This document shows positions 2,141 through 61,400 of a stretch of DNA of 64,000 nt, one piece after another. Made by a program: the position numbers and the translations under genes. Within the stretch, counting starts at the first letter, position 1. Each line of letters starts with the position of its first letter. The notes below the pieces were generated by a model. That model was not told where the DNA came from. It was given only the letters and a program-made list of their open reading frames with translations, and did not search any database. The stretch covers positions 1,860,001 through 1,924,000 of the forward strand of contig CM057136.1 in assembly GCA_029964075.1 (NCBI GenBank). Direction: 5' to 3'. This stretch comes from Patiria pectinifera (lineage: Eukaryota > Echinodermata > Asteroidea > Valvatida > Asterinidae).

Positions 2141-2560
2141 CATTATATATGTTGCATAATTACCCCAAATACATGCATATTCATAGTCTAATTCCATGAC
2201 GTACCATGCATACCGCGCCGTATCCCGCGGATTGAATCATGATGTACAATATGTGTGTATACACGTAATGGTACATGTGTACCAAGGTGACCGTTTTAGC
2301 CCATTCTCGGCTAACCTTGTCCGAATTTTGTTTTAAAAAACGAGAGTTTGACAAAAAAATTTACAGAATGGATTTTTTTGGGGCAGATTTCTGGCAGAAT
2401 TCTGCAAATATTGTTGTAAATTTGATTTGATGAGAACAGCAAATTTGAACAAAAACTGAACAAATCTGAAGAACAAATTTGAATAAAAATGATACATATT
2501 TGTTTAAAAAGCTTCAATCCTTTCAAACAAACCCTGACATAATAATGGGACAAGTTGGCT
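2141..2560. other. Non-coding gap, A-rich
   Basis: Positions 2311-2553 are made of AATTTG/AAAAA-like words that leave an open frame on the minus strand, but its residue make-up is low in complexity. No domain is recognisable. Confidence 0.4.
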
Positions 2561-3184
2561 GGTCTTGGCAGAGTTGTAATAACTCGAGTTAATTACTCGA
2601 CTCGAGTCCGACTCGAGTCACAATTGTTGGTGACTCGACTCGACTCGAGTCCCTAAGGGTAAATGACTCAACTCGACTTTACTGCGAGCAAATGACTCGA
2701 CTCGACTCTCCCTCATCAAAGGACTCGACTCGACTCGAGCGAAGGCTGATAATTAAGACTCGATCGAGTCCCAAAAATGAAAAGCACAACTTTGCGAAAA
2801 GTATTCGCAATGACTTACGGTGCAAAATGTATGCTCACTTTACTTTGCGAATAACAGTCATGTACAAATATACAAGTGTCACAGACTCTCACTTCATGGT
2901 TCTAGAACGCACAAAATACCATCCGGGAACCAGATTTTTAAACACATTTTCTTATTCGCTGTTTCATCATCGGTTTTTGGCGAAGTTATGGCCTCCTTTT
3001 ATAAATTTTGGTATACATAGTGTTCAAATAATCGTGAGTCGAATCGACTCGAGCTAAATATTTGTCTCGACTCGACTCGACCTTTTGACCTAATGACTCG
3101 ACTCGATTCGAGCCACTTCTTTAAAATGACTCGACTAGACTCGAGTCAGAAAAATCAGTGACTCGTTACAACTCTGAGTCTAGG
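2561..3184. mobile_element. hAT-like MITE with TCGAGTC arrays, copy 1 (608 bp)
   Basis: The element starts CAGAGTTGTAA at 2569 and ends TTACAACTCTG at 3176. Both subterminal parts are filled with degenerate direct and inverted ACTCGACTCGAG words. The flanks GGTCTTGG and AGTCTAGG match at 6 of 8 positions, an aged 8-bp target duplication. CAG...CTG ends with 8-bp duplications are typical of hAT. A second copy at 53914-54913 has a perfect duplication. The open frames inside are by-products of the repeats. Confidence 0.8.
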
Positions 3185-7850: not shown

Positions 7851-10076
7851 GTGTCTGACCATTGTGCTGTCCATTGCCGGTTGGACTTGCGTAAACCAAG
7901 ATATGTGAGGCACAAAATCACGTATCGGGAGATCACTGCGATAGACCCCACTAAATTTAAGGATGACATTGCCACATCTCCGCTCATCACATGCCCTGCA
8001 GATACGCCATACACCTTAGTCGACCAGTACAACTCTGTACTCTGTAAACTGCTTGACTCTCACGCTCCCCCCAAAACCTGCAAAATTGTAGATAAACCAA
8101 AAATTTCTTGGTACAACAATGACATCGCAGAGGCCAAACGCAAGCGTCGTCAACTTGAACGACGCTGGCGAAAATCCAAGTTACAGATACACCGTGAGAT
8201 GTTCCAATCGCAGAAAGATCTGGTAAAATCCAAATACAGGTATTACCAGACGAATTACTACTCAGAGAAAATCCAAGGCTGTGATGGTGACCAACGTGCC
8301 CTTTTCCAGGTCATAAACCATCTTCTGCACAAGAAAACAACACCCATACTCCCATCATTTTCTTCACCCTATGTGATGGCTACCCATTTTTCTGACTTTT
8401 TCGACAGCAAGATCTTCAAGATCAGAAATGACTTAGCAGAAATGGATCCCGGCATTAATTCTGCGCAGGCAGATCTTGAGTTTTGCCAATCTCCCCTTTT
8501 ATCCTTAGCACCTGCATCAGACACGGAAGTGATGAAGATCGTCAAGAGTGCACCGACGAAGACCTGCCCTCTTGACCCAATACCGACATCGTTGGTAAAG
8601 GATCACATCAACGTGTTGATTCACCCTGTAACACTGATCATCAACAAGTCACTCGCCACAGGTCACTTCCCGACATGCTTCAAGACAGCTCTCATCACAC
8701 CCGTCACCAAGAAGAAATCACTGGACTCTAATGATCTAAAGAACTATCGTCCAATTTCAAATTTGCCTTTTATGTCGAAGGTTGTTGAGCGAGTAGTTGC
8801 AGCCAGGTTGAATGCACATCTCATTCAACATAACCTGCGGGACAACCTCCAATCAGCGTACACTAAGTTTCATAGTGTTGAGACAGCACTTGTCAAAGTT
8901 CACAACGACACAATGCTCGCTGTTGGCACCAAAAGGGTTGTTCTCCTGGTTCTGCTAGATCTTTCAGCAGCCTTCGACACCGTTGACCATAAAATCTTGC
9001 TACATAGGTTACAGTATCACTTTGGGGTACAGGGATCTGCACTTTCATGATTCAGATCATACCTCCAAGATCGATCTCAGGCTGTCAACATATCTGGAGA
9101 GTTGTCTGATCGGTCAGTTCTCCGACATGGGGTTCCGCAAGGACCTCTGCTGTTCACATTATACATAGCTCCTTTAGGGTGCATTGCAAGACGTCATGGC
9201 CTACACCCTCATTTTTATGCAGATGACACACAACTCTATGCCACCTTCTGTCCAAGTTCTCCTGGTGATGACACTATTACACACCGTATTCTTGAAACAT
9301 CCCTGAAAGACATCCAACAGTGGATGACAGCCAATCTCCTCAAATTCAACGCAGCCAAAACACAGTACCTTGTCATATGTTCTCAGCACCTCAGACACAA
9401 AGTCAACATCTCTGACATACACATAGGAGATACACATATCGCTCCTTGCTCAGAAGCCCGCAATCTTGGTGTCATTTTTGACAAGTCAATGAACCTTGAA
9501 CGACATGTCTCTTCTATTTGTCAGTCCTCTTACATACATCTACGACGTGTAGCAGCAGTAAGAAACTCACTTACATTCTCTGCCGCAGAACAACTCATCC
9601 ATGCCTTCATATCATCCAGATTAAATTTTTGCAATAGCCTACTTGTAGGTTTACCACAACATACGATAAAACGTCTCCATTTTGTCCAGAACTCTGCCGC
9701 TCGCACACTCACAAGAACGAAATCATCTTCCCACATAACGCCCATCTTGCGCAAACTTCATTGGCTACCAATCCAGTACCGCATCTATTACAAAGTTCTC
9801 CTTCTTACTTTTAAAGCTCTTCATGGCTTAGCCCCACTGTATCTGAAGGAAATGGTTCAACATTGTCAACTTAGACCAGGTCTGAGGTCGTCGTCATCCA
9901 ATATGCTGTTTGTCCCGAAGACTCGTTTGGTAACCTACGGAGACCGTGCATTTTCCAGCTCTGCACCGCGTCTCTTGAACTCGTTACCAGACGAGTTAAG
10001 GGCAATACACCAATTATCTCTCTTCACACGCCAACTAAAGACCCACCTCTTCAATCAGTTTCTTTCTCACACATAA
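7851..10076 (+). pseudogene. LINE reverse transcriptase, one in-frame TGA
   Basis: The same frame runs from the endonuclease SDH motif to the final stop at 10074-10076, broken only by TGA at 9048-9050 where LINE relatives usually have Trp (ALS[12 protein letters not shown]). RT motifs follow in order: [43 protein letters not shown] with the catalytic Asp pair, and [10 protein letters not shown]. The C-terminal region has [13 protein letters not shown] and [10 protein letters not shown]. Apart from the single stop, the frame is well kept, which suggests a recent death. Confidence 0.9.
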
Positions 10077-12286: not shown

Positions 12287-13629
12287 TATAGGTTTTCCCG
12301 GCCAATTTCATCAAACTTTCATTCAATTTAACGCCTGGCTCATTCGATTTAAATTGAAATTGAAAGATCACGCAGATCGGCGTTCGACAATCAAAAAGAA
12401 TCATTCAATTTCACTATCCGAGCATTCTATCGCCTTTTAGCTTCATTCGTCCCTTTCAAAGATGCATTCATATTAAAAGTATCGCGTTGTTCATTCAATT
12501 TCGTCTTAACCATTAGTAAGGGTTTGATCGGGCATTCGTTTTCATTAATGGGCAAACATATTTCACAGTTTGTCAAACATCTTTTAAGACTTCATACGTG
12601 TCAGTAATAGCGTAAATCATATTTAACGACTTCAATCCGTAGATGTCTTTCTTTCGTAATTAAAGGGTATGTGCAGTGACTTTTTCTCAGGAAATCTTAT
12701 TGTGCAACTCTTTACTACTGTGAAATTTAAGGAAACTACACAATTGACAAAAATGGTTATATCTTACTGCAAAAGTGCACTTCTTTAAACATGCTTTTCT
12801 TGACTACGTATGAGCGCACTGTTACTGTGATGTTATATATTTCAGGAAGACACTGTTTAGTTTAGGGTTTTTTTCTTTCAAATGATTCATCCAAAATTTG
12901 GTAATTAAAAACATTTGTGGGAAAGGGTGGTCATTGGCTTACTGCCATGTACTGACACATCATATAATCACCAAATAAAAGAAATTTATGACCGCGAAAT
13001 ATCCAAAATTCTAGCAACTTTGTTCGCTGAAATAGCCGTGTAACATTAATAATGCCCGGAATGCCACCACACACAGGTTTTCTGATGAGTATGAAACTTT
13101 GCATTAGCATAAAACGGATAAGGCACCAAAAACACCCCTCAAAATGGAAAATGAAACTTGCAAATAAGGTTAAATGCGACTCAAAGATGAATTTTCAAGG
13201 TTTGCATTGCAAAGTTACTTTGCATGGACCCTGTGAATATGGTTAGTGTTCGGTCAGACATGCGCAAGAAAAAATTTAAGAAATAACTCAAGGAAAATGT
13301 TGCCGATGGTATGGTACAACCATTGCCAAGCGTAGGTGTTCCGATGTCTTGCACGTCAAGAAATCGTCAACGTAAAGATGCCCCTTGCTCCAACGTTTAA
13401 ACAAGTAAAAGAGATAAACAGTGAAAAATAAATTATCTTAGTCCCTCCAATTAATTAATTCGCTATTACATCTTGTTTCCCTCATAGGGCCTATCAGTTA
13501 ATTTGTAACATTGTAAATGTTACAGTTTGGGGGGGGGGGGAATGAACCTCGAAGAAAAATAGGAAAATATATCGATTAATTTTTTTACCAATTTGAATGA
13601 CCAAACGATGAAAGCGATTGCCCATAAAC
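12287..13629 (+). mobile_element. GGTTTTCCCGGC element, copy 1, left-end part
   Basis: Begins TATAGGTTTTCCCGGCC and is rich in TTCATTC / CAATTT words near the end. It contains the family's GTGCACTTCTTTAAAC, ACTACGTATGAGCGC and CATTAGCATAAAA segments and a G tract near 13529. At GCCCATAAAC (13629) it is cut by the start of the next copy; other copies read through that point, so copy 2 is inserted here. Confidence 0.75.
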
Positions 13630-14147
13630 TATAGGTTTTCCCGGCCAATTTCACCAAGTTTTCATTCAATTTAGCGCCTGGCTCATTCGATTTAGATTGA
13701 AATTGAAAGATCACGCAGATCGGCATTTGACAATCAAAAAGAATCATTCAACTTCACTATCCGAGCATTCTATCGCCTTTTAGCTTCACTCGTCCCTATC
13801 AAAGATGCATTCACTTTAAAAGTATCGCGTTGTTCATTCAATTTCGTCTAAACCATTAGTAAGGGGTTGATCGGGCATTCGTTTTCATTAATGGGCAAAC
13901 ATATTTCACATTTTGTCAAACATCTTTTAAGACTTCATACGTGTCCCGTATTCCTTAGCGTAAATCATTTTTGATGACTTCAATCCGTAGATGCCTTTCT
14001 TTCTTAATTGAATGGTATGTGCAATGAATTTTTCTCAGGACTTCTTATTGTGCAACTCTTTACTACTGTGAAATGTAAGAAAACTACACATTTGACAATT
14101 TTTTGGGTTAATCTTGCTGCAAAAGTGCACTTCTTTAAACTTTTTCC

Positions 14148-14396
14148 ATGCTTTTCCGGACTACGTATGAGCGCGCTGTTACTGTGATGTCATTTCAGGA
14201 AGACACTGTTCAGTTTAGGGTTTTTTCTTTCAAGTTATTCATCCAAAATTTGCTAATTGAAAACATTTGTGGGAAAGGGTTGGTCATTGGCTTACTGCCA
14301 TGTACTGACACATCAAATAATCACCAAATAAAAGAAATTTATGACAGCAAAATATCCAAAATTCTAGCAACTTTTTTTGCTGAAATAGCCGTGTAA
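14148..14396 (+). other. Open frame conserved between copies of the GGTTTTCCCGGC family
   Basis: This 82-codon frame contains FQEDTVQFRVFSFK, IENICGKGLVIGLL and KISKILATFFAEIAV. Versions occur at 15538 (+, broken after the first part), 16921 (-, partial) and 22249-22575 (-, 108 codons). Because the copies are homologous DNA, shared frames do not prove translation. It matches no protein family I know. Listed as a possible short ORF of the element. Confidence 0.25.
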
Positions 14397-15464
14397 CATT
14401 AATCATGCTCGGAATGCCATCATAGGTTTTCTAATGAATATGAAACTTTGCATTAGCATAAAAACGGAGAAGGCACCAAAAACGCCCCTCAAAATGGAAA
14501 ATAAAACTTGCAAATAAGGTTAAATGTGACACAAAGATGTATTGCATTGAAAACTTTGCACGGGCCCTATGAATATGATAAGTGTTCGGTCAGACATACG
14601 CAAGAAAACATTTAAGAAATAACGCGTAAGAGAAGTGTTCCCGACGGCACATCCATTTCCAAACATATTACGTGTTCCGATGTCTTGCACGTCAAGAAAT
14701 CGTCAACGTAAAAAAAACCCTTGATCAAACGTTTCAACAAGTAGAAAAGATCAACAGTGAAAAAGAAATTATCTTAGTCCCTTTCAATTCATTATTTCGT
14801 TGCATCTTGTTTCCCTAATATCAGTTGATTTTTAACATTGTAAATTTTACAGTCATCAAGATTGTTTTGTGGGGGGGGGGAATGAACCTCGAAGAAAAAT
14901 AAGAAAAAAATATCGATTAAAAATTCTTATTAATTTAAATGACCAAACGATGAAAGCGATTGCCCATAAACGAATAAGAAACGAAAAGCATGGTTATACG
15001 TTACAAGCGCACAGATGCTCGCTAATTTGAATGCGTCTACCGTCAAAAGGTTGCAAAGACTTAATTTAAGACTGGTACAAGTTAAGTTTTGAATGCACAA
15101 AAACGAAATAGGCTGCCCAAAAACGAAAACGAACATTCACAGCAAAAGCTTGGCTGCCTAAAAATGAAATTGAATGAACCCCAAATGAAAAAGAAAATTG
15201 AATGGCTGATAATGAAACTGATTAGAGCGCACAGATGTTCGCTAATTTGAATGCGTCAACCGTCTACAAGTTAAGTCTTGAATGCACCAAAACGAAATAG
15301 GATGTCAAAGATCTTTTAAGACTCATACGTGTCCGTACTCCTTAGCGTAAATCATGAATTTTTATCAGGAATTCTTTTTGTGCAACTCTTTACTACTGTG
15401 AAATGTAAGAAAACTACACATTTGACAACATTTTGGGGTTAATTTTATCGCAAACGTGCACTTC

Positions 15465-15522
15465 TTTACCCTTTAGGGACCGGGGCGGAATGGTCAAAAT
15501 AACCCAGCCCTTTTAAGGTTAA
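15465..15522. mobile_element. 50-bp piggyBac-type mini-insert
   Basis: The segment from CCCTTTAGGGACC to CAGCCCTTTTAAGG sits between TTTA and TTAA in a place where related copies of the host element read TTTAAAC without interruption. It keeps only the two ends of the 1.18-kb piggyBac-like MITE (CCC...GGGGCGGAAT joined to GGTCAAAATAACCC), so it is an internal-deletion derivative. Confidence 0.6.
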
Positions 15523-16674
15523 ACACTTAAAGTTTCCATGCTTTTCCGGACTACGTATGAACGCGCTGTTACTGTCATGTTAGTTCAGGAAGAGACTGTT
15601 CAGTTTTGGGGGTTTTCTTTCAAATTATTTATCCTTAATTTGCTAATTGAAAACATTTGTGGTAAAGGGTTGCTCACTGGCTTACTGCCATGCATACTGA
15701 CACATCAAAGATTCACCAAATGAAAGAAATTTATAACAGCAAAATATCAAAAATTCTAACTTTTTTGTGCTTAAATAGCCATGTAACATTAATCATGCCC
15801 GGAATGCCATCACAGGTATTCTAATGAATATGAAACTTTGCATTAGCATAAAAACAGGGAAGCACCAAAAACATCCTTCAAAAATGAAAACGAAATTTGC
15901 AAATAAGGTTAAATGTGACACAAAGATGTATTTTCAAGGCTTGCATTGCAAACTAACTTTGCATGGGCCCTGTGAATGCAGTAAGTGTTCGGTCAGACAT
16001 GCGCAAGAAAACATTTAAGAAATAACTCAAGAGAAATGTTCCCGATGGTACATCCATCGCCAAACATAGGTGTTCCGATGTCTTGCACGTCAAGAAATCG
16101 TCAAAGTTAAGATGCCCCTTGCTCAAACGTAGAAAAGATAAACAGTGAAAAACAAATTATCTTAGTCCCTTCAATTAATTAATTCGTAATTACATCTTGT
16201 TTCCCTCATAGGGCCTATAAGTTAAATTGTAACATTGTAAGTTTTACAGTTATCAAGTCTTGGAAATGAACCTCGGAGAAAAATAAGAAATATATCGATT
16301 ACAATTTTTTACAAATTTAAATGACCAAACGATGAAAGCGATTGCTCATAAACGAATAAGAAACGAAAAGCATGGTTATACTTTACAAGCGCACAGATGT
16401 TCGCTAATTTGAATGCGTCAACCGTCAAAAGGTTGCAAAGACTTAATTTAAGACTGCTACAAGTTAAGTCCTGAATGCACTAAAACGAAATAGGATGCCC
16501 GAAAATGAAAACGAACATTCAGAGCAAAAGCTTGGCTGCCTAAAAATGAAATTGAACGAACCCAAAACGAAAAAGAAACCCCAATTTGACCACATGTGCA
16601 AAACTCACAGGAAATTGAATGGCTGATAATGAAAGTTATTGGAAAATTTCGGAAATTCGCCGGGAAAACCTATA

Positions 16675-17520
16675 TTTTTCCTTTTTGAGGGGTGTTTTGG
16701 TGCCCTTCTCGTTTTTATGCTAATGCAAAGTTTCATGTTCATTACAAAACATGTGATGGCATTCCAAGCATGTTTAATGTGACACGGCTATTTCAGCAAA
16801 AAAAGTTCGTAGAATTTTGGATATTTTGCTGTCATAATTTTTTTTTTTTTGGGTGATTTTATGATGTGTCAGTACATGTCAGTAAGCCAATGACCAACCC
16901 TTTCCCACAAATGTTTTCAATTAGCAAATTTTGGATGAATTATTTGAAAGAAAAACCCTAAACTGAACAGTGTCTTCCTGAAATGACACCACAGTAGTGA
17001 CAGCGTTATGCAGGGAAAGCATGGAAACTTTTAAATGCTTAAAGAAGTGCACATTTGAAATAAGATTAACCCAAAAAGTGTTGCCAAATGTGTAGTTTTC
17101 GTACATTTCACAGAGTTGCGTAAAAGAATTCCTGAGAAAGATTCATTGCACATACCCTTTAATTAAGAAAGAAAGTCAATCTACGGTTTGAAGTCATGAT
17201 TTAGACTTTTAAGACTTCATACGGACATGTTTGACAAAATGTAACATATGTTTGCCCATTAATGCAAACGAATGCCCTATCGATCCCTTACTAATGGTTT
17301 AGACGAAATTGAATAAACAACGCGATACTTTTAATATGAATGCATCTTTGACAGGGACGAGTGAAGCTAAAAGGCGATAGAATGCTCGAATAGTGAAATT
17401 GAATGATTCTTTTTGATTGTCGAATGCCAATTTGCGTGATCTTTCAATTTCAATCTAAATCGAATGAGCCAGAAGTTTAATTGAATGAAAACTTGGTGAA
17501 ATTGGCCGGGAAAACCTTTA
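16675..17520 (-). mobile_element. GGTTTTCCCGGC element, inverted partial copy
   Basis: Shows the family's internal blocks in reverse order and complement, from CTTTTTGAGGGGTG to the left-type terminus GGCCGGGAAAACC at 17516. The right-type half is missing at the junction with the composite copy upstream. The result is a head-to-head arrangement. Confidence 0.7.
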
Positions 17521-18022
17521 ATATGATTGTGTATTTTGTCCATTGTTTATTTTGTTAAATATAATAATTTGGTAATGTGATTCCTGATGACGTCATAATG
17601 ACGTGCCCTCTGTATCAGGGTTGATTTTCGTTCCACGTCTCAAGTTCCTGCTTAGAACAGGTTGAAGAAAAGTCGCTGAGAATGACGGTCCGGGAAAAAG
17701 AAAGAAAAGCTCGTACGATTCTAAATCGGTGGCATTTTTAACGATGATTGTGCACTTAAATGCAAGGCCAGTAGAATCGGACTTACAAGAAACTGACTGA
17801 GACCTCATAGTGTGTACATTCATGTACATCTTCCTGATCCGAAAGTCACAGGGAGCAATGATATTGGGAAGAAGTAAAATATATTCAAACGATATGAGAC
17901 AGGGAGGTACTGATAGAGGGGGTAATTCAGTCGTTCGTTAGTGGGTATGAAGACAAACATTGGATCAATGCCTTTTAAAGTATGAAGAAGTCAGCCAAGA
18001 ATAGGCCCTCCTTTTCAATAAA
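17521..18022. other. Short intergenic gap
   Basis: Contains TGATGACGTCATAATGACG at 17586-17604, similar to the words at 5.9 kb. No gene recognised. Confidence 0.4.
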
Positions 18023-18752
18023 GGTTTTCCCGGAGAAATTCCGATTTGTTCTAATCAGTTTCATAATCAGCCATTAAATTTTGCGTGAGTTTTGCACATG
18101 TGGTCAAATTGGCAGTAAGCCATCGAGCAACCCTTTCCCACAAATGTTTTCAATTAGCAGATTTTGGATGAATAATTTGAAAGAAAAACCCTAAACTAAA
18201 CAGTGTCTTAGGCTTCCTGAAATGACAACACAGTAACAGTGCGCTCATACGTAGTCCGACAAAAGCATGGAAACTTTTAATGTTTAAAGAAGTGCACTTT
18301 TGCAATAAGATTAACCAAAAAATGTTGTCAAATGTGTATTTTTTTTACATTTCACAAAGAGTTAAACGAAAAGAATTACTGAGAAAAATTTATTGCACAT
18401 ACCCTTTAATTAAGAAAGAAAGGCTTTTTCGGAATGAAGACATTAAATATGGGTTACGCTAAGGAATACGGACACGTATGAAGTCTTAAAAGATGTTTGC
18501 CAAAATGTGAAATATGCTTGCCCATTAATGAAAACGAATGCCCGATCAACCCCTTAATGCTGGTTTAGACGAAATTGAATGAACAACGCGATACTTTTAA
18601 TATGAACGCATCTTTGATGGGGACGATAGTGAAATTGAATGATTCCTTTTGATTGTGAAATGCCGATCTGCGTGATCTTTCAATATCAATCTAAATCGAA
18701 TGAGCTAGGCGTTAAAATGAATAAAAACTTGGTGAAATTAGCCGGGAAAACC
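18023..18752 (-). mobile_element. GGTTTTCCCGGC element, 730-bp internally deleted copy
   Basis: Has the right-type end (GGTTTTCCCGGAGAAATTCC) at 18023 and the left-type end (TTAGCCGGGAAAACC) at 18752, so it is complete at both ends. The G/C-tract half and the CATTAGCATAAAA block are deleted between them (junction near CAAATTGGCAGTAAGCC). A TATA-like flank is present on one side only. Confidence 0.75.
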
Positions 18753-18829
18753 TATAATAAGACAAATATCACTGTCGATTAAAATTAAAATAAAAAAATT
18801 GGGCCACGGTTGTCACTATTTTTATTTTA

Positions 18830-19296
18830 GGTTTTCAGCTATTTCAAAACGTTCTTCATTCGAATTCACTGTTTCTAATATTCAAATTCGTCCATCAACA
18901 TCCATTTAGTGCACTTCCAATGTTTAATTTTGTCTTTTGTCAGACAATTTCAAATTCAGTTCATACAAGCAAATTCAAACAATGATTACACGTTTTCGTC
19001 CGGGAGTATTCTATCTCGTCTCGTCTACGCCAAACCTTTCAAATTCGTCTAATTTATTTATATAAAGACGAATTCGATCTCTGAATGCTACCATTCGGAA
19101 ACAGCTTAGACGAATTTAATCTGTAATGTCGAATATTCTTAACCCGGTGACTAAAGAGGGTGACCAAACTTTGAAATTGAATGGTAAATGACTAATTTAA
19201 GTGGTTTTCGTTAAGCATTGGAATTTGTCTCGGATGAAATTGGATGTTAGAGTTGGTGAATTTGAATGAAAATGTTTTTAAATAGCCGGGAAAACC
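18830..19296. mobile_element. Divergent GGTTTTC element, 467 bp
   Basis: Starts AGGTTTTCAGCTATTTC and ends AATAGCCGGGAAAACCTATA. The interior shares no obvious block with the main family but has the same enrichment in AATTCRTC / GAATTTGAATG words. I take it as a sister subfamily recognised by the same transposase. Confidence 0.6.
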
Positions 19297-19870
19297 TATA
19301 ATATCTTAAAGCGTAACATTGCAAAGGCCTCTCTGGTAATATTTTTCCTCTCATCAATTTGATTATAAAGTAAGCCTCGTTCATTTATGATGCAGTTACT
19401 CCGGGAAAATACACAAAAGAGGCACAACCATTAATTGCTAGCTTTCTCCCTCGTCTTCTCCTCCAAATGTCAATTAGGCATCGATAAAAATAAATAAATT
19501 AAGTCAAATTATCCATGACATTTCAATTGTGTAGTTCACTGAAAAGCAGAGCCAACATAAAAAAAAAAACCCTGAAGGCAGATTACACCATGAACTTATG
19601 TTTTTTTCATCACAGAGTTTTGGTAACCCCTTGGGGTAACCCATCGGATACGCACCAACGGCGGCGATTTCTAGTCAGGATTTGGAGGGCACAGCGGCGT
19701 GCCGCTGTGCCCTCCGCGGCGTCGACAGACGAATCTCCGGGGGGGGGGGGGGGGGAGGGAAGATTGCCATGTAGGCATATTAATGGTTCGAGCTTAGTGG
19801 TAGCCCGCTAGCCAAATGCGAGTAAATACAGCGGTGGGCTAGTCAAAGCACTTGTTACATTACAGTGTTA
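19297..19870. other. Intergenic with G tract and GGGCACAGCGGC palindrome
   Basis: An inverted repeat GGGCACAGCGGC/GCCGCTGTGCCC lies at 19688-19712 and a run of about 17 G at 19739-19756. No gene seen. Confidence 0.45.
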
Positions 19871-19874
19871 TATA

Positions 19875-21127
19875 GGTTTTCCCGGCGAATTTCCGAATTT
19901 TTCTAATCAGTTTCATTATCAGCCATTCAATTTCACGTGAGTTTTGCACATGTGGTCAAATTGGGGTTTCTTTTTCATTTTGGGTTCATTCAATTTCATT
20001 TTTAGGCAGCCAAGATTTTGCTCTGAATGTTCGTGTTCGTTTTCTGGCATGCTATTTCGTTTTGGTGCATTCAACACTTAATTTGTAGCAGTCTTAAATC
20101 AAGTCTTTGCAACCTTTTGACGGTTGACGCATTCAAATTAGCGAACATCTGTGCGCTTATAACGTATAACCGTGCTTTTCGTTTCTTATTCGTTTACGGG
20201 CAATCGCTTTCATCGTATGGTTATTCAAATTAATAATGTTTTAATCGATATGTTTTCTTATTTTCCTCCAAGGTTCATTCCCCCCCCCCCCAAAAAAAAA
20301 AATCTTGATGACTGTAAAATTTACAATGTTACAAATTAACTGATATGAGGGAAACAAGATGTATCAAAATAATTAATTGAAAGTGACTAAAATAATTTAT
20401 TTTTCACTGTTGATCTTGTCTACTTGTTTAAACGTTTGATCAATGGGTATCTTTACGTTGGCACTTTTTTGACGTGCAAGACATCGGGACACGTGTGTTT
20501 GGCAACCATCGGGAACACTTCTCTTGCGTTATTTATGTTTTCTTGCGTATGTCTGACCGAACACTTACCGTATTCAAAGGACCCATGCAAAAGTAAATTT
20601 TCAACGCAAACCTTGAAAATACATCTTTGTGTAACATTTAACCTTAATCGCAAGTTTTTATTTTACATTTTGAAGGGTGTTTTTTGTGTGTGCCCTCTAG
20701 ATTTTTATGCTAATGCATGCTTGCACACAAATGTTTTCAAGTTTTGGATGAATAATTTGCACATACCCTTTAATTAAGAAAGAAAGTCAATCTACGGTTT
20801 GAATTCATCAAATATACTTTTAAGACTTCATACGGACATGTTTGACAAAATGTAACATATGTTTGCCCATTAATGCAAACGAATGCCCTATCGATCCCTT
20901 ACTAATGATTTAGACGAAATTGAATAAAAAACGCGATACTTTTAAAATGAATGCATCTTTGACGGGGACGAGTGAAGCTAAAAGGCGATAGAATGCTCAG
21001 ATAGTGAAATTGAATGATTCTTTTTGATTGTCGAATGCCGTTCTTCGTGATCTTTCAATTTCAATCTAAATCGAATGAGCCAGGCATTAAATTGAATGAA
21101 AACTTGGTGAAATTGGCCGGGAAAACC
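19875..21127 (-). mobile_element. GGTTTTCCCGGC element, 1253-bp copy with both ends
   Basis: Right-type end GGTTTTCCCGGCGAATTTCC at 19875 and left-type end TTGGCCGGGAAAACC at 21127, both next to TATA. It holds the C tract, the TGACGTGCAAGACATCG block and TTGTTTGACAAAATG-like blocks, but a middle section is deleted around 20750. Internal open frames are not supported by the other copies. Confidence 0.8.
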
Positions 21128-21509
21128 TATAATTCACTTGTCTTGTTAATGACATACTTTTTAGGGAGATATTTCAAAGGGGAATTAACTTAAATTATGT
21201 GGTATAGTTTAATGTTTGTAATGTAAAGTTGAATGTATTTTAATGTTTTGAGCACAAAAACCACGACACCTTCTATTGTATACCACTGTATATAAATGGC
21301 AATCAACCAAATCAATGAATCAATCAATCAAACCTATTAAAGTCCCCCGGGCGAGTCAAAATTATTGAAATAAGGCATGCAACTTTCTCGTGTATCCGCG
21401 AATTTTAGAGTTTTTAATGGGAATTGCGGCCTAAAATCCCCGAAAATGTCATGTTTTGGATTGATTAATACTTATCCTATTTCAAAGGTCTGGTTGAAAG
21501 GAAACTATA
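21128..21509. other. Short spacer with an (AATC)n tract
   Basis: ACCAAATCAATGAATCAATCAATCAAACC lies near 21307. No gene seen. Confidence 0.4.
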
Positions 21510-22767
21510 GGTTTTCCCGGCGAATTTCCGAATTTTTCTAATCAGTTTCAATATCAGTCATTAAATTTCGCGTGAGTTTTGCACATGTGGTCCATTTGGG
21601 ATATCTTTTTCATTTGGGTTTCATTCAATTTCATATTTAGGCAGCCAAGATTTTGCTCTGAATGTTCGTGTTCGTTTTCTGGCATGCTTTTTCGTTTTGG
21701 TGCATTCAACACTTAATTTGTAGCAGTCTTAAATTAAGTCTTTGCAACCTTTGACGGTTGACGCATTCAAATTAGCGAACATCTGTGCGCTTATAACGTA
21801 TAACCATGTTTTTCGTTTATTATTCGTTTATGGGCAATCGCTTTCATCGTTTGGTCATTGATTTTTTTAATCGATATTTTTTCCTATTTTTCTCCGAGGT
21901 TCATTCCCCCCCCCCCAAAAGAAAATCTTGATGACTGTAACATTTACAATGTTACAAATCAACTGATATGAGGGAAACAAGATGCAACGAAATAATGAAA
22001 TCTTGAAATTCGGGAACAATTCTCTTGCGTTAATTCTTAAGTGTTTTCTTGCGTATGTCTGACCGAACACTTACCATATTCATAAAGCCCATGCAAAGTT
22101 TTCAATGCAATTCATCTTTGTTTCACATTTAACCTTATTTGCAAGTTTTATTTTCCATTTTGAGGGGTGTTTTGTTGCCTTCTCCGTTTTTATGCTAATG
22201 CAAAGTTTCATATTCATTAGAAAACCCGTGATGGCATTCCGAGCATGTTTAATGTGACACGGCTATTTCAGCAAAAAAAGTTGCTAGAATGTTGGATATT
22301 TTGCTGTCATAAATTTCTCTTATTTGGTGATTGTATGATGTGTCAGTACATGGCAGTAAGCCAATGACCATCCCTTTCCCACAAATGTTTTCAATTCGCA
22401 AATTTTGGATGAATAATTTGAAAGAAAAAACCCTAAACTGAACAGTGTCTTTCTGAAATGACATCACAGCAACAGCATTAGTCCGGAAAAACAGGGAAAC
22501 TTTTAAATGCTTAAAGAAGTACACATTTGCAATAAGATTAACCAAAAAAGTGTTGTCAAATGTGTAGTTTAACATTTCACAGAGTAGCGCAAAACGAATT
22601 CCTGAGAAAAATCATTGCACATACCCTTTAAGAAAGAATGGCAATCTACGGTTTGAAGTCATCAAATATGATTTACGCTAAGGAATACGGACACGTATTA
22701 AGTCTTAAAAGAGGGTTGACAAAATGTGAAACACGTTCACCCATTAATGAAAACGAATGCCCGATCA
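21510..22767 (-). mobile_element. GGTTTTCCCGGC element, truncated copy
   Basis: Has the right-type end GGTTTTCCCGGCGAATTTCC at 21510 and follows the family through to AACGAATGCCCGATCAA at about 22767, where it passes abruptly into unrelated DNA without the left-type terminus. Confidence 0.7.
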
Positions 22768-23164
22768 AATATTGTTTCTCGCGCGTCCGCAAAATACGAT
22801 GCACTGGTAAGACAAGTGCGGCAGAATTCAAGACCAGCACCCAACAGCTCGATATTTGAAAGTCACAATTTTAACTTTTAAAGGATGGTTATGGTGTCGA
22901 TATTTATATCCTTTTTTTAAATGCTCTCTCCAATTTTCTTGCCCAACTTGGCGCATTCAAGAACGTAATATCCCTTTAAAAATGCCGGTTTCAGAAAAAA
23001 ACTGATACTGACGCGCATTTGGTTTGTTTCATGTCATTGCGCCGCCGACTTTCGCGCCAAAACCGCTAGCGAGTAAATAAAAAAAAAGGATCATGGCCTG
23101 GCTCTGCGTTTTTGTAGAACGTACCGGTATTGCTGCCAAACAAACAAACAAACAAAAAACGACA
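22768..23164. other. Intergenic, no gene recognised
   Basis: Includes an (AAAC)n-like stretch near 23140. Nothing else stands out. Confidence 0.35.
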
Positions 23165-39704: not shown

Positions 39705-40330
39705 CGAAACTTAAGTAGGCAAGTGCCCACGTTTGTCTTGGTGCAAGACCACTAGTTTTATTTAGCGCGCCCTTTCTCGAAAGAAACTTTCAGTTGTTGT
39801 TTGACGGTTTCTCACGAAATTGAATCTCCTTATGTTAAACATCAAGACCAATCACTGACCGAACTTTACAACTTAATACCGCTGGGCCTGGTTGGCTCGG
39901 GTTATTGCCCAAACAACGAGTGTGTTATAAAATGTGTCCATCATGGATGGTGACTTTCTTTGCATTCGGTTTGTATTTTCCGCGTTTAAAATACTGTATG
40001 TGTTTCGGTGATATTATTTGTTATTGTTTGACGGTTTCCCATAAAATTTAATTCCACACACAGTCATCATGAGAAAGCACTTTACGAAATTTTAATTTTG
40101 CAATACAGAACAAATTCGTTAGGGGCAACAACTCAAGAAATACTAGATGTGTTAAAATTAAAATTGGTAAACGCCTTGGAAATCTAGAGTGGTAAGTATT
40201 AAAACAAAAATGTGGAGGAAAGGGAGTCGATTTGCAGGTCTGAAACCCTAGGAGGGCATCCGTGTTAATTGGCCAACATTCCGTCCGCCGAACTCATGAA
40301 TAAAAGTTATACACTCAAATTCTTCTTTAA
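39705..40330. repeat. Repeat block after the AGAGGGCGCGCC element
   Basis: TAGTTTTATTTAGCGCGCCC, TTTGACGGTTTCTCACGAAA, GGGTTATTGCCCAAACA and similar words recur at 43070-43480 and 50960-51370. Some words form inverted pairs across the block. It is one long dispersed repeat associated with the TIR element. Confidence 0.6.
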
Positions 40331-42832: not shown

Positions 42833-43003
42833 GGTGCGCCAAAAAATAGTGTTCTCGATATCCACCACCAAACTCGTTTTGGGGGCAGCAACTCAAGAAA
42901 TACAAGATGTATTATCGAATTATCGTCTACGTTTAGCAAAAGTACAGCGTCCGTGTTGATGCTTTGTGGCGACCACTATTTATGTGGCGCGCCCTCTATT
43001 GAA
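42833..43003. mobile_element. TIR element TTCAATAGAGGG, 171-bp copy
   Basis: Same ends as 39352-39704, including the AACTCGTTTTGGGGGCAGCAACTC stretch on the left and TTGATGCTTTGTGG on the right, but half the length. Confidence 0.7.
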
Positions 43004-43497: not shown

Positions 43498-43500
43498 ATA

Positions 43501-44041
43501 GGTTTTCCCGGCCAATTTCCTAAAACGTTCATTCACTTCTGAAAATCCGTCATTCATTTTCGTCTGAAATTGAATGCACGTCTTCAATCCCATTTAAATT
43601 CAACGAAAGTTCAAACGTTTTCATTGTCTGTGCATTCGGTTTTGAGAAACAGACGGCCAATTATTTTACCTGTGCATTCATTACGCAAGCAAACCTTTTC
43701 GTGCAGAGTTCTGGAATACAAGGCCGTGAATGTGCAATCAAAATTACATTATCCTAATTCCAAATAGCAAATTAAATCACAGAACATTAAACTAAAAGTG
43801 AAATAGAATGGTCAATGTTTGAAATTGCCCTCGAAAAGCGAAAAAGAAGTCTAGTAAACGAATCTGAATGAACAGAAACGAAAGGTGCTGCTCAATAACT
43901 TAATTGATTGAACTGAAATGGAATCGAATGCTCTGGTAGCGAAAATGAAACACATGTTCAGAGCGATTCTCAAATTCAGACGAAAACGAATGACCAATTT
44001 TCCGAGGTGAATTAACATTAAGAAATTGACCGGGGAAAATC
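43501..44041. mobile_element. GGTTTTCCCGGC-type element, divergent 541-bp copy
   Basis: Ends GGTTTTCCCGGCCAATTTC and (inverse) GATTTTCCCCGGTCAATTTC next to TATA. The interior is packed with TTCATTC/GAATGAA words but does not share the main family's internal blocks. Third subfamily. Confidence 0.7.
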
Positions 44042-44112
44042 TATATTACAAATGTATTAACATTAAAATTTCAAACGCCTGGGAGATCTATAGAGATCTC
44101 ATGAATACAAGT

Positions 44113-44542: not shown

Positions 44543-45196
44543 TTGTCCTTCCTTGGTGAACACTATCTACAGGTACACGGCACTGCAATGGGCACTCACA
44601 TGGCCCCGTCGATGGCTTGCCTCTTCATGGGTGACCTCGAAGAACGCATTCTTGCCTCGGCCCCATGTCGCCCTTGGATCTGGTGGAGATATATTGATGA
44701 TTTTTTTTTCATCTGGACCAGTGATGAGGACAGTCTTTTGACCTTCACTAACCACATCAATTCCTTCCACAGAACCATCAAATTCACATCGGAGTTCTCG
44801 GCTCACCAAACCCACTTTCTGGATGTCACCGTCCGCAAGCAAGGCAACTCACTAACCACTGACCTGTATTCCAAACCCACAGACACCCACCAGTACCTCC
44901 ACTCCTCCAGCTGTCACCCGTTTAGCCAGGCACTCAGACTCAGACGAATTTGTTCTAATGATTCCAATTTCTCCCGCCATACACAGAGGAACAACTTGGT
45001 GGCCAGGGGTCACAGCTCTCGCCAAGTTCATCGTGCCATTGCCAGAGCTAAAGCTATCCCCAGAAATCTAGCTCTCACGGGAAAGGCCCCTGATGCCATG
45101 GCCAAACCCATGATTCCCTTGGTTACCACGTTTCACCCCAATTTCCCTCCCCTTCGCAAAATCACTAATGACAATCATCATATCCTCCATACTTAA
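44543..45196 (+). pseudogene. Penelope-like reverse transcriptase, C-terminal part
   Basis: Shows LGEHYLQVHGTAMGTHMAPS, then RYIDDFFFIW with the catalytic Asp pair, HQTHFLDVTV and DLYSKPTDTHQYLHSSSCHP. This order and the GTAMGT.MAPS phrase are specific to Penelope-like RTs. The frame ends at TAA 45194-45196, where relatives continue towards the linker. Confidence 0.9.
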
Positions 45197-45232
45197 GATC
45201 GCCTTGCCCGTGCCATCCCCAACGGCCCCACA

Positions 45233-45928
45233 TTGGCTTACAGGCGTCCTCGAAATCTACGGGACTTGATTGTTCGAGCTGAAGTCCCTTCCTTAGATGC
45301 AACCCCCTCGGTATCAGGTCAAGTCGGACCCAAACCAAGTCGGACCCATGCCAAGTCGGACCCATGCCAACTCGGACCCACGCCAACTCGGACCCACTAC
45401 CAAGTCAGACCCACATTGGCTTACAGGCGTCCTCGAAATCTACGGGACTTGATTGTTCGAGCTGAAGTCCCATCTTTAGATGCATCCCCTCCCACCCAGC
45501 ATGGTACTTTCAAGTGCAGTTCCAGATGTGTTGTCTGCCAGATTCATATCCAGGAGTCTGACCCCTTTATTGGCCACTCTTCTGTCACTACCCACAGAAC
45601 CATTGGTAACATCACTTGTAACACCTCTAATGTCATATATCTCATTTCTTGCAGGCTCTTTGGAGTGCAGTATGTAGGTGAGACTAAGAATACGCTCAAG
45701 AAGCGTTTCTATGCCCACCGGTCAACGGTCAACACCAAGAAACTAGACACCCCTGTTGGTCATCACTTCAACCTGCCTAACCACTCCATTTCTGATATGA
45801 TTTTGCAGGGCATTGAATCTCTTGGCCATCGCAAGCACTCAGTTCGCCTCAGCAGAGAGAAAGTGTGGATGAATCGTCTTCGAACTATTCAACCACATGG
45901 TCTCAACATCCAACTTGGAAATGATTAA
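45233..45928 (+). pseudogene. Penelope-like linker and GIY-YIG endonuclease
   Basis: Same frame as the RT. The linker LAYRRPRNLRDLIVRAEVP is present twice, 183 bp (61 codons) apart. The endonuclease part has VIYLISC, GVQYVGET and LKKRFYAHR, the GIY-YIG core with the Arg of the catalytic helix, and later VGHHFNLPNHS and LSREKVWMNRL. The frame ends at 45926-45928. Between the linker copies is a 16-bp tandem repeat. The domain makes the target nick. Confidence 0.9.
45317..45412 (+). repeat. 16-bp tandem repeat inside the Penelope-like element
   Basis: Six units of AAGTCGGACCCATGCC and close variants lie between the two linker copies. The total insertion keeps the reading frame. Confidence 0.9.
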
Positions 45929-55405: not shown

Positions 55406-58400
55406 CTTTACATTGATGGAAACGAGAAAAGGGTGATAAATATTCTTCCAAAACGCACAAGGACTTCAAAATTAGCAGGTGCTTCTTTTTCTTGGAAGAT
55501 TAAAACAAAGTTGAACCACCCAGTGTTTTCATTAAAAACAAATTAATATGGGACTATTAAAAGGGACAGATGCGAGATGACGGGACAGGTTTTTTCCCTC
55601 CAATATCTTTGATCGTGTTTCCTTTTTGTTTTTAGTTATTCATATTTTTTAATAACAAACGTTCCATATTGCGTTTATATTGCGCATATCGTCACCGTTT
55701 TCACGAACAGCCACATACTATATATATTATGTTGATTTTGAAGAAAAGTGTTTTCGTTATAATCGCAAAAGAAGTTTCTCATATTTTAAAACTTCAAGAA
55801 ATACTACTTTGCAACAACTTTGTGCAGCAAGGAAACCATCACACGATTCTACGAGAGCTGAAGTTTTACATGAACCTGGTAATAAGACTTAATACAGCAG
55901 TTAATTAGTAAAAATTAATTAGTAAAGATATGTGGCTCTTCGTGAAAACGCAAATTCAGGTTTCCGAGATATTGGCCCTTTCTGTTCAACGTGTATTTCT
56001 ATAGGCGCGCGTGAGTACGCGCGCGCAGCTGAAAATGTAACAAAGATATGTGGCTCTTCGTGAAAACTCAAATCTCATTTGACCTACTTTTACGTATTTC
56101 CGTGCAATGGGTTTTGTACGCGTTCAAAGGGCCAAAATGTATGTGGCTCTTTGTGAAAACGCAAAATGCATTTATCGAGATTTCTGCCCCTTGCAACATT
56201 AATGTAACTTAGAAATGAATGATGTTTCGCTTACAGAAACATGTCAAAATGGTTAAGTACATTGTTTGAATGCGAAATATTGAAAAAATTCAAAATCGAA
56301 AAAAATGTAATTTTTGACATATGTGGCTCTTCGTGAAAACGGTGACGATATTGCGTTTATATTGCGTTTATATTGCGCAAATTCCATGTCAAAATATTCT
56401 TCCCCCCCAAAAAAAAAAAAAAAATATTGGGGCTCGAGTTGTTACGTCCGATTTCCCCATTGCAAACACCTAATCAGTTCATTCCAAAGTGACGACGCTC
56501 TGAAAATACAAAGAACTGGTTTATTTAAATTTGATAGGAAACAAAACCTACATCGTAAGCGAGTCCCCACAGTGCGGGTCGGCCGATGAAGACGGCTCGT
56601 GCTCCCAGAGCAAGGGCCTTGAGGACATCGGTGCCTTTACGCACTCCTCCGTCAAGATACACCTCCACGTTGGAGCCACGTACGGCGTTGACTACCTCGG
56701 GTAGAGCATCTATCTGTTGGGGAGATTTACCAAGATATGCCCTATACTTTAATGGTAGAAGATTTTAAAATCCTTGAAAAAAATAATTGCGACCTAATAT
56801 ATTAATGGTTATCGGAAGTGATTTTAATGAACTTATACTTGGGATGTTGAAAACGGAAAATTTCAGCCCATGGCATGTTCGTAACCGTTCTTTGTGTGTA
56901 TTGGCCAGATTGGAAAACATAACGACGTGGTCTAGTCTATAGGGAAGATGTTGCTAACGTTCGCCAACGTTCATGGCAAACAGTCGGCCCCACTTGCGCA
57001 ACCGTTCCCAACGTTGGCAAACGTTAGCTTTAGTGTAAAGCACATCGTCGCTAAACTTTATGGTTACAAAGACAGTGCGCGGAACCGTCGGCAGCCTGCG
57101 AGATAGTTTGCGTCTGTCTTGGTTGTCGGTGACATTTGCGGATGAAAAGTTTCCATATGTCTGCGTTGCAGATGGGTCTTGATTGCGCTGCTCTCTGCGT
57201 TTCTGACCTCGATATGGAAAGTATAGGCTTGATTTCCGGACCCCTGCAGTGTCTTCACAGAGGAACGCCCCTGAACGTAAGCGCATGGCGGCTATGACGT
57301 TCATGCCCTCAACTCTCTTTTTCACAGTTGATGTAATTAATGCAAGTATCCACTACGCCCAAAGCTATAACCTTCCTTTTGGGAAGGCGCTGATGTGGAT
57401 TTTTTTTAATTGCGTTCAAGTTATTTAACAAGCGCATTTTTATATTTGTACCTTTATAAGACATTACGAGTTTCTAATCTTGAAGATTACACTTCCTACA
57501 CTCACAGTCAACTATCGGCAACAAAGATTTTAAACACTTTCACATTTAATTTTGCTTGTACCAAAGATCGTATGGGGCAATCTAAGTGCTGGTACCCAGT
57601 CAAGTTACCCCAAATGGCAGAGTTGTAACCAAGTCATTTTTTCCAAGTCAAGTCAAGTCCCAAGTCAAATTTAAGCAAGTCAAGTCAAGTCTCAAGTCAA
57701 AAAAATAGCGACTCGATCGAGTCAACAACACTGCCAAACGGTGCTGCGCGTGTTTTTTTTTCTCTCATGTTTACCGTAGCTGGTACCCCGTCCAGTTGAC
57801 GGCCGCCATGATTTGACACCCAAATGGCAGACACACCGCGCTTGACTGCTTCACTGGCATCTTCAGCTGCACGAGGATAAACAACATACCAGATTCAATC
57901 CAAACTTTATTTTGCACACATTTCTCGCCGGCTTTTTTGTGAGCCAACACGCATAATGTTACACACTTAGGCAAAACATAAATAGCCAAACCATAGTTAA
58001 TTTTCAGATCAGGGATCCTTGGTGGATCTGGATGTAGTTTTTGTACCAAAACGTACGCGTAACTATCATTTTCAGACTTATTTGACTCACCAGTGAGTAT
58101 GCCTTTCAGTACGATCGGCAAAGTGGTCAGGTCTCGAAGCCATTCGAGGTCATCCCATGTCAGTGAGGGGTCAAGTGTCATTCTGTCTTCAGAATCGAGG
58201 TAAGAACCACCGGGAACGACGAATTGCGGAAACCTGCAATAGAAGAGTGATATACATTCTCGTACCATGCATGTATGAAAATTATTTGATATTATTTTTA
58301 GTAAATCTTACTAAAAAGTGCACTTCTTGAAACATTAAAAAATATTCCATGCTCTTGAGGGCGCTGTTGCTGTGAGTCATTTCAGGAAGACAACGTTTTG

Positions 58401-61400
58401 TTCAGGGTTTTTCTGTTCAAGTTGTTGGTCAAAAGAGCTCGCAGAATGTGTAGCCTGCGTGATGATGAGGTAGCCTAAGCCGATCCTACTGCAAGATCAC
58501 CCAGTCCAATCTTACATACCTATAGTGTGGACATGGGGGGATTCCTTATGTCGACCTGGCTCAGTCCACTGCAGAAGGTTAATACAACCTGCATCGTGTG
58601 ACAAAGGTATCAAGGTTAGCACACTCACGTCAAATCCGGAGGTTCAACAGCCGGGCCAGTGCGCCGCCTTTCCACCCCATTCCCTGTCACTGGCTGATCC
58701 ACCGTCAGCACGATCCCCTTGAAGCCCGCCCTCTCGGTCCTTTTGACCAGCCACTCGGCGTGCGAGGTAAGCCTGTCCATGCTGGTCCTGTCACAAAAGA
58801 CGTTGAGCTGCTGGAACAGCGGTGTTTCGGGCCCAACGGCTGCGGCTATGTCTTCCAGAGGCTTGTTGGACCACATGCTGAGCCCCATTGCGGAACCAAC
58901 ACTGGCTACGCCTACGGAACACGTGCAAATGGCGTTACCGCCTGAACGCTTTGGGTGCGTTCGAGCATGTTACTCGTGCTAACAGGAGTATACTCTTGAG
59001 CACACGAACGGCAGGAGTACGACCCGAGGGTAAGCGAGTATTGCAAGAGTGTACTCAGACCTAGTCTAGGAGCTAGACGTTTCATGGTTTGTTTGATACG
59101 CGATAACCCTCCGCCGCGATAGGTGCCGCCGCGAGAGGCCGCTATCCCGACCAACCAATATCGCCCGCGGACTTGTAAGTATCAACGTTAGGGCATCTCA
59201 TTTTGGTTGTGTAATGCGCGCGCACCAGTTTGGCGTAATATATGCAGCAAGCAATTCTAAAAATTCATAGTAGTTCCGAAGCAAACTCTAATTTCCATTC
59301 CAGTACTATATAACAGATACAGCAAGACTTTTGTGCAACCTCACTGGTTAGCTTTTTTGTGTGTGTGTTTAGTATGCTTGGGACTAAAAATGGGCCGTAA
59401 TTGCCCGCAGAAGACGCGCATGCGCTGCAGTTTCGGGGAGATTTCAGGAGATGCCCTAGACACGCGCACGCACTCTGTGCAAACCCGCGGGTCGTACTCC
59501 TGCCGTTCGTGTGCTCAGGAGTATACTCGTGTTAACACGAGTAGCACGCTCGAACGCACCCTGGGAGTATTATACTCTTGCACCGAGAGTAATGCGCACG
59601 CAACATTTTCTTGCGCTAGTATACAGGGTGTTTCAATAAAAAGGAAACCCAAATTTAAAGAACCAGTATGGACAGACTAAATGTTTACTGGCTTTAAAAC
59701 TGGTATCATCTGAAAGCGTAATCTCTATGCTTTTCAATGATACCTTGTTTACATTTCCAGGGTCATGCATCACTGAGCGCCACTGTCTTGAGATTTTGAT
59801 GCAAAATTGCAGTTGGTTCACTTTCATGTCAAACACAATAGGCATGGTGTGCATGAGAATAAGTATCCAAGAAGAAGACACGAGTGCATAAAATGAAACA
59901 AAAAAAACCAAGTCGGGTTGGTTTCAAAACTGGATTTTATTGTTTGTCATGAATTTCTCGTTTTGACCAAGCCACGTTCAAAACAATGTGCCATTTTCCC
60001 GAGGATTAACATTCAAGCCATTTCACAGGCATTTCCGTAACAATAGGCACACCGTGCCCAGTGGGGTTTTTTTTATGAAAGCGAACCAACTGCATTTTTT
60101 GCATCCAGGTTTCAAGACAATGATGCTCAGTGATGCATGACTCAGAAAACCTAAACATGGTATCATTGACAAGCATAGAGATTACGCTTTCAGATGATAC
60201 CAGTTTAATAGCCAGTAAACATATCGTCTGTCCATACTCATTCTTTGAAGTTGGGTTTCCTTTTTTTTTAAACACCCTGTATAGCAAGAGTAACACGCGG
60301 CGAACGCACCCCTCTAGCTGGCAACACGCATGCACTGTCTTGTCTACGTAGTCGCCGTCCAAACCATTTGCATGTCACGTGAGGCGTCAGGATCAAAATT
60401 AATCACTGGATCTAGGAACTTTATAGACCTTTCTGCGCTGGTTGGCAAACTGCATGTTTGCCAACCTCGGCCTGCAAAAGTATGGAAGGTCCAACACTGC
60501 AAAAATGAAGAAGAGTTATTAAAGATCACCAAAATATTATTTGATACTTGAAAATACAACATTTTCAACAAAGCTACAACATAATTCCCACATATGTCTT
60601 TTTACCATGTGTTGGTGGCGTTATGAGGACTTTTTTTGGAACAATGTGTTGCCAACCACGGCTTCAATTTATGCGCTTACGGCAGCCCATACAAAATGGC
60701 GCCAATGTTTACAAACAAAAGAAAGGCCTATGGTAGCAGACCAGTAAATAAACTTCCATAGACCCCAATGGTAAATGCTCCCACTTCAAAATTCGGGGAA
60801 AATACTAACAACTATCTCCAAGGTGTTCGCGACCCACATCAAATTAAAGCTTATTTCATCATCTTTCATTTTCTTTTCAATTTTCGGGGGGTCAACTGAT
60901 GACTTTTAGGAGAAATTTCCATCTGAAGATGATCACCCCTGAAAATAGTCCTGAAGCCCATCGCCATTTTGAAAAACGATGCCTACATTCCATTGCAAAA
61001 TAGAGCGCTTTTAGGGTCCAAATTACATCAAAATTACACAGAACTGCAAACTCCCTGTCCTGTGCACGGCTTCCACCCATATTTTTTACAAACCCTCAAG
61101 TTCATGGCCCACAACATGCTCAAATACTGAAGATTTTGAGGGCATGCAAATCGTGATTTGGCCGGCGCAGGCAATTTCGGACCGATTTACTGGTCTGCAC
61201 CCCTATAACAACAATATGAGGCACGGCGGTTCGGGAAGCTGACATGAGGCATGACCAATTTCTGACGTCATCCGTTTGGTAAACTTAAATTGCCCGCGTA
61301 TACTTCTTGAAGTCTTCCCAAATTCTCAAAACATCATTCAGAAAACTGTCACTGCCGTACCTTTAGCGGTTGCTATTTCTGCCTCTGGATGCAGCATACC

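Follow-up and report, generated by a model that had tools for sequence, protein, structure and literature searches.

Introduction

Transposons of the Tc1/mariner group (ITm) duplicate a TA dinucleotide within an AT-rich target and have small non-autonomous members bounded by terminal inverted repeats (TIRs). Here we describe a family of TIR elements in the asteroid Patiria pectinifera, found in a 64-kb stretch of contig C8 (positions 1860001-1924000; hereafter the window, whose first letter is position 1), and compare it with this group and with other described systems. Sailor (DD82E), of the IS630-Tc1-mariner group, is reported to have 4-bp TATA duplications and TIRs starting with GT and CC, and to be present in one echinoderm species (PMC8533490). 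ISL2EU, of the PHIS group, duplicates a dinucleotide in an A-AT-T target (PMC4482050), and for KolobokP a TTAA duplication, long terminal direct repeats and 5'-RR...YY ends are reported (PMC9587614). Transposase sites phased with the helix have a bacterial precedent in the Tn7-like system VchCAST, whose activity varies with a period of about 10 bp when the distance between TnsB sites is changed (PMC10201428).

The elements described here probably form a large family of non-autonomous TIR transposons of the cut-and-paste kind, the arms of which, those of the L type above all, include phased arrays of putative transposase-binding sites. The ends, the target and the pattern of copies suggest cut-and-paste movement with the transposase acting in trans.

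A genome-wide family with shared ends

The elements of the window share a 12-bp end, GGTTTTCCCGGC, which occurs far above chance, as do its two continuations. The 12-mer (at most 2 mismatches) was found 14 times in the window against 3.8 expected, and GGTTTTCCCGGCSAATTTC (at most 3 mismatches) 10 times against 0.05 expected from shuffling. In the whole genome (613.5 Mb, 1,020 contigs), TATAGGTTTTCCCGGCSAATTTC (at most 2 mismatches) gave 1,061 forward and 1,126 reverse matches, that is, 2,187 ends, whereas its reversed-pattern control gave none; the second continuation, GGCTATTT, marks 404 exact ends. An earlier, sequence-only reading of this DNA had proposed a TIR family with true borders and two differing arms, and both proposals hold: the borders carry inverted terminal repeats on either side, as in MITE-like (miniature inverted-repeat transposable element) DNA transposons, and the L and R continuations are distinct.

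Seven elements or pieces (E1-E7) and one interior fragment lie in the window; E1-E6 occupy 12.3-22.8 kb, and E7 lies near 43.5 kb (coordinates run from TAGG to CCTA). E1 (12289-17518, + strand), of the alpha subfamily, is a composite whose halves are inverted and whose borders each carry an L end (12291(+) and 17516(-)); it is flanked by TATA on one side and TTTA on the other. It holds E2 (13632-16672, + strand), a nested alpha element with perfect 12-bp ends and TATA on both sides, to which it aligns by blastn over 12287-13629 (86.5% identity) and 17520-16676 (85.2%). E2 is itself partly duplicated internally (about 1.05 kb, the two copies 85.7% identical). E3 (18021-18754, - strand) and E5 (19873-21129, - strand, TATA on both sides) are alpha copies with internal deletions, arranged R...L, and E6 (21508-22768, - strand) is a truncated alpha copy that retains the R end only, its L end missing, and matches E2 coordinates 238-1015 and 2546-3045 by blastn. 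The interior of E4 (18828-19298, no strand assigned; about 470 bp, subfamily b) is unrelated, and its TIR pair lies at 18830(+) and 19296(-). E7 (43499-44043, + strand; about 545 bp, subfamily c) is inserted in a host repeat that is also present empty at 40058-40189 and 42869-42914. The interior fragment (58271-58434, + strand) is a 164-bp stretch, 70% like the alpha interior, without ends. The eight elements or fragments counted earlier are thus seven, or eight if this fragment is included.

Genome-wide, five subfamilies could be told apart, rather than the three with unrelated interiors first proposed. Full-length alpha copies outside the window measure 1,616-1,656 bp (in five copies); b is the E4 type; c is E7-like (512-737 bp in pairs from fetched genome loci, which carry L numbers here); d comprises L044 8664-9787 and its relatives; and e is represented by L083 and L084 (1,085-1,086 bp). 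The L083 element matches its own reverse complement along its entire length (element positions 1-1085, 79.8%) and is foldback-like. At L072 12-534 a c element adjoins a b-type end, with a few bases between the two TATA sites, so that different subfamilies occupy the same AT-rich spot.

Some copies have moved recently. The alpha copies of L030 and L041 are 98.8% identical across 1,629 aligned bp, and that of L029 is 96.7 and 97.4% identical to them. Two e-type elements with different flanks (L081 168-2428, 2,257 bp, and L082 165-2423, 2,255 bp) share 99.2% identity over 2,255 bp. Both hold about 1.2 kb extra relative to the 1.09-kb e copies, including a 126-residue open frame that by eye resembles the tail of a LINE (long interspersed nuclear element) reverse transcriptase and has no Pfam match. 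The alpha copies of the window are older (83.7-92.8% identical to the other copies compared), and E7 and six further c copies are 79.9-91.4% identical to one another. Exact alpha L ends are concentrated on the window's own contig: C8 (16.8 Mb, 2.7% of the genome) carries 17 of 63 against 1.7 expected (binomial 8e-13 if ends are independent, segmental copies being left in). Local hopping or a special chromosome may be the cause of this excess.

There is a substantial chance that the family is already catalogued as a repeat of this or a related animal, which would be compatible with the other readings considered here. A repeat annotator would hardly overlook more than 2,000 ends; against this, no paper listed from the open-access literature, judged by titles, gave the end in a transposon context.

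Phased sites in the arms

The elements are rich in one short word, as the sequence-only reading had noted for TTCATTC/GAATGAA. CATTC or GAATG occurs 85 times in their 9,593 bp (8.9 per kb, compared with 2.1 per kb outside them), and dinucleotide shuffles of the elements gave a mean of 27.7 and a maximum of 45 in 200. A longer form, CATTCRATTT, recurs in inward orientation near offsets 29, 50, 111, 132, 174 and 201, positions that are common to six window arms. With sites scored as inward CATTCRATTT with at most 2 mismatches in the first 240 bp of an arm beyond offset 20, they fall at 29, 50, 111, 174 and 201 in the L arm, at 49, 112, 173 and 200 in the R arm, at 27, 49, 111 and 206 in b1, at 28, 50 and 113 in b2, at 29, 50, 90 and 132 in c1, and at 49, 111, 116, 131 and 171 in c2. 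The inward CATTC array of the E1 L arm (12320-12542, + strand) has members at 12320, 12341, 12402, 12423, 12444, 12465 and 12492 and at offset 242; that of E2 (13663-13885, + strand) at 13663, 13684, 13745, 13766, 13808, 13835 and 13876. The c1 arm of E7 (43530-43684, + strand) keeps the same register as L (offsets 29, 50, 132 and 174), with an outward site at 66.

Coincidences of position among the six arms numbered 29, compared with 3.5 +/- 1.9 when arms were rotated (maximum 14; 0 of 2,000 rotations reached 29). None of 1,500 permuted motifs reached 29 either, the best of them (22) being the motif shifted by one. Pooled positions had a period peak at 21.0 bp, equalled in strength by 0 of 1,000 random sets, and distances within arms only gave a peak at 20.7 bp, equalled by 18 of 2,000. 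Sites pointed inward in 26 cases and outward in 5. At fixed columns, identity in the three motif blocks exceeded that in the rest of the arm for 13 of 15 arm pairs, for some only slightly. The b arms show near-random identity to the other arms outside the motif columns (0.21-0.36), yet have their sites at the common positions. When single arms were autocorrelated, no one lag stood out clearly.

Five arms of new subfamilies, among 20 arms, were then scored on the register taken from the window arms only. The d1 arm fits (5 of 7 sites; 4 of 239 rotations as good): its sites at 89, 110, 131, 152, 173, 200 and 240 and its outward site at 65 equal the L register of the window (weaker variants at 90 and 153, outward site at 66) minus one or two bases.

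Several observations weigh against a register maintained as a row of protein sites. The CATTCRATTT motif was picked after the L arm had been seen, and the period tests count arms as independent though they are related. Motif columns are hardly more conserved than the rest between L and R (0.42 versus 0.41) and less so between R and c2 (0.39 versus 0.41). The d1 arm is without sites at 29 and 50, and its periodicity taken alone is not significant (115 of 2,000). Among the other later arms, dL024 fits only marginally (3 of 6; 14 of 239 rotations as good), and d2 (1 of 4; 126 of 239), e1 (1 of 4; 112 of 239) and e2 (0 of 4; 239 of 239) are off register. With one clear fit, one marginal fit and three misfits, the array characterises some arms, chiefly those of the L type, rather than all of them. 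Site density is higher in L-type than in R-type arms, which suggests that the two ends are unequal.

These points bear on a rival that we consider possible but rather unlikely, namely that the common word positions are relics of one long ancestral TIR with diverged arms, conserved by descent and not as protein sites. Outside the motif, L is 51% identical to c1 and 41% to d1, so the register may partly reflect ancestry; long TIRs exist in the family, as the e element with its 79.8% self-complementarity illustrates; and the register is absent from three of the five later arms. Against descent alone stand the b arms, near random outside the motif columns with their sites still in place, and the periodicity of the within-arm distances, in which related arms are counted as independent. 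Of the earlier suggestion that the arms look as if binding sites were the only conserved thing, the recurrence of short words at common positions is supported and can be sharpened: the words follow a phase of about 21 bp, and most of them point inward.

Target site and superfamily

TATA abuts 10 of 13 ends in the window and 27 of 57 end-like sites outside preselected anchors (fetched loci and window, chance sites counted in). Of 29 listed pairs, 18 have it on both sides; among those from fetched loci, one end had often been chosen for its TATA, and some are chance pairs. In the flanks of 53 TATA-abutting ends, A occupies position -2 in 42 and A or T position -3 in 50, so that WAA (W, A or T) is preferred outside TATA.

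Empty sites bear on the length of the duplication. The alpha element of L030 sits in a short interspersed nuclear element (SINE) of transfer RNA-like type, a label given from its sequence. In the alignment, two paralogs of this SINE that represent empty sites (L021 2959-2838 and L030 8809-8699) are 2 bp shorter than one TATA requires; inspection of a third by eye (L035 9595-9497) agrees on 2 bp less, and L025, compared with its paralog in L040 (67% identity), is likewise 2 bp short. Because the SINE paralogs and the L025/L040 pair are each short by 2 bp, the favoured reading is that a 2-bp TA is duplicated in a WAA-TATA context and that the termini are TAGG...CCTA, with TA part of the TIR; the element would then run TAGGTTTTCCCGGC...GCCGGGAAAACCTA. 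The TATA insertion preference proposed at the outset therefore stands as an AT-rich, TATA-type target, with duplication of TA favoured over that of TATA.

Other sites speak less clearly and count against this assignment. Three window pairs have one flank other than TATA. The E7 empty site does not discriminate between the alternatives: the best paralog scores 110, 110 and 103 for no duplication, TA and TATA, respectively, the second 74, 73 and 76, and two weaker ones 39, 35 and 31, and 18, 14 and 10. The L032/L029 empty-site pair is too gapped for use.

ITm is the lead superfamily candidate, on account of the TA and its AT-rich surroundings. Like non-autonomous ITm members, the elements are small and bounded by TIRs, probably duplicate TA at an AT-rich target, and show no transposase. 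They differ in the phased site arrays of their arms, and nine ITm-type loci examined (5 of 88 DDE_3 matches and 4 of 54 DDE_1 matches) are without these ends in 3.1-4.5 kb.

Membership of the PHIS group, as ISL2EU or a relative, is improbable. A 2-bp duplication in an AT-rich target recalls the ISL2EU dinucleotide duplication (PMC4482050), and PF13359 genes are plentiful in the genome (at least 152 matches). However, duplication of AT in T-AT-A predicts an empty site with one TATA, which exceeds the observed length by 2 bp; the WAA-TATA flanks depart from the A-AT-T target; and two fetched PF13359 loci, of the at least 152 matches, have no GGTTTTCCCGG within 3.8 kb each. That the elements are Sailor is very improbable: the 4-bp TATA duplications and the occurrence in one echinoderm species reported for it (PMC8533490) speak in favour, and TATA is present at the target here; on the other side, the SINE empty sites are 2 bp shorter than a single TATA would make them, TA is the duplication favoured by those empty sites that can be used, the TIR starts reported for Sailor (GT and CC) are others, and a degenerate pattern for the Sailor HCELNPIE box, which may vary between taxa, had 0 genome matches at up to 1 mismatch. 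KolobokP is matched by GG...CC, which fits 5'-RR...YY as long as TATA is left outside the TIR, but the flanks here are TATA rather than TTAA, and the ends are inverted, with no long terminal direct repeats seen.

Search for an autonomous partner

No open reading frame of at least 150 residues occurs in the elements of the window, which hold 66 short frames. Among 11 frames tested from fetched copies, none is a recognisable transposase; of ten of them, nine had no match and one matched a phage protein family below threshold (E 0.083). The family thus combines many dispersed copies (2,187 ends) with frames that lack a transposase match, and alpha interiors carry many indels between copies.

The sequence-only reading had proposed to look for an autonomous partner among TIR pairs around long open reading frames; none turned up in the pairs and transposase loci examined, which counts against our reading of the family. 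The 11 transposase loci of other types are without these ends. The fetched DDE_3 and DDE_1 loci have other TIRs or none, and no GGTTTTCCCGG within the 3.1-4.5 kb covered; PF01359 has one weak match in the genome. Positions of transposase matches were compared with end positions by eye, among the ends listed. One candidate pair lies on contig C15, where an exact alpha L end at 11735635 is followed 2.9 kb on, on the same strand, by a DDE_3 match at 11738536 (span 11735635-11738949); the 401 bases at the expected R end hold no GGTTTTCCCGG, with a diverged end there by eye.

Pairs of ends gave a similar picture. An L end lies about 1.65 kb from 13 of the 15 recent-type exact alpha R ends (L029, L030, L041 and 10 of 12 tested); the remaining two run on as alpha over about 760 and 1,170 bp, with no second end within 5.95 kb. 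None of the 22 exact c ends is paired with another exact c end within 10 kb; all 8 that were inspected have a diverged partner at most 620 bp away. The longest open frame in a 2.8-kb R...L pair (L053) has only 104 residues, and the first 100 of the 404 GGCTATTT ends yielded two 2.26-kb pairs, both of e type (with the extra 1.2 kb) and without a transposase match.

Exact 19-mer matches to one IMG/VR contig and 18 stretches of prokaryote genomes were rejected as chance, since they have no TATA before them, no paired GGTTTTCCCGG end and only 19-32 matching bp. Within the PF13359 matches, a group (for example C11:5567559, C16:10805189 and C5:16345295) shares an E-value of 2.7e-47, several members having a 382-residue open frame, which suggests a recently active family.

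Other features of the window

A reverse transcriptase in two frames (PF00078) at 7851-10076 is taken as a non-LTR (long terminal repeat) retrotransposon. At 44543-45928, a GIY-YIG domain follows a frame that resembles reverse transcriptase but scores below the Pfam cut-off, a pairing that we take to be Penelope-like. An exon-like frame at 57771-58268 (- strand) resembles flavin mononucleotide (FMN)-dependent dehydrogenases (PF01070), which suggests that a host gene occupies the right part of the window; the 164-bp alpha fragment lies beside this exon.

Discussion

On the reading that we prefer, the elements would be moved in trans by a transposase, most likely of the DDE type, for which the inward CATTCRATTT sites would form a row of binding sites about two helical turns apart. 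Such spacing would place bound subunits on one face of the helix and might help in pairing the ends; it suggests that at this step several subunits bind cooperatively, or that the arm is bent. Sequence outside the sites would be freer to change, so that different interiors could be carried along. Host factors, in place of a transposase, may also bind the arm sites.

Several spaced transposase sites per end, with a spacing tied to helical pitch, are also features of Tn7-like ends with their TnsB sites. Those ends are bacterial, and the likeness is one of working only; we do not claim homology. It seems to us unlikely that the family reveals an animal transposase lineage not yet described, with many sites per end at two-turn spacing and unequal L and R ends in the Tn7-like manner, in which spacing rather than sequence would define the mobile end and new interiors would be recruited repeatedly.

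If a transposase does read the phased array, a single rule, by which the ends and the spacing are kept while the rest changes, would explain subfamilies with different interiors. Numerous (more than 2,000 ends), recently mobile and with its exact alpha L ends strongly enriched on one contig, the family offers a useful marker of transposition in this genome.

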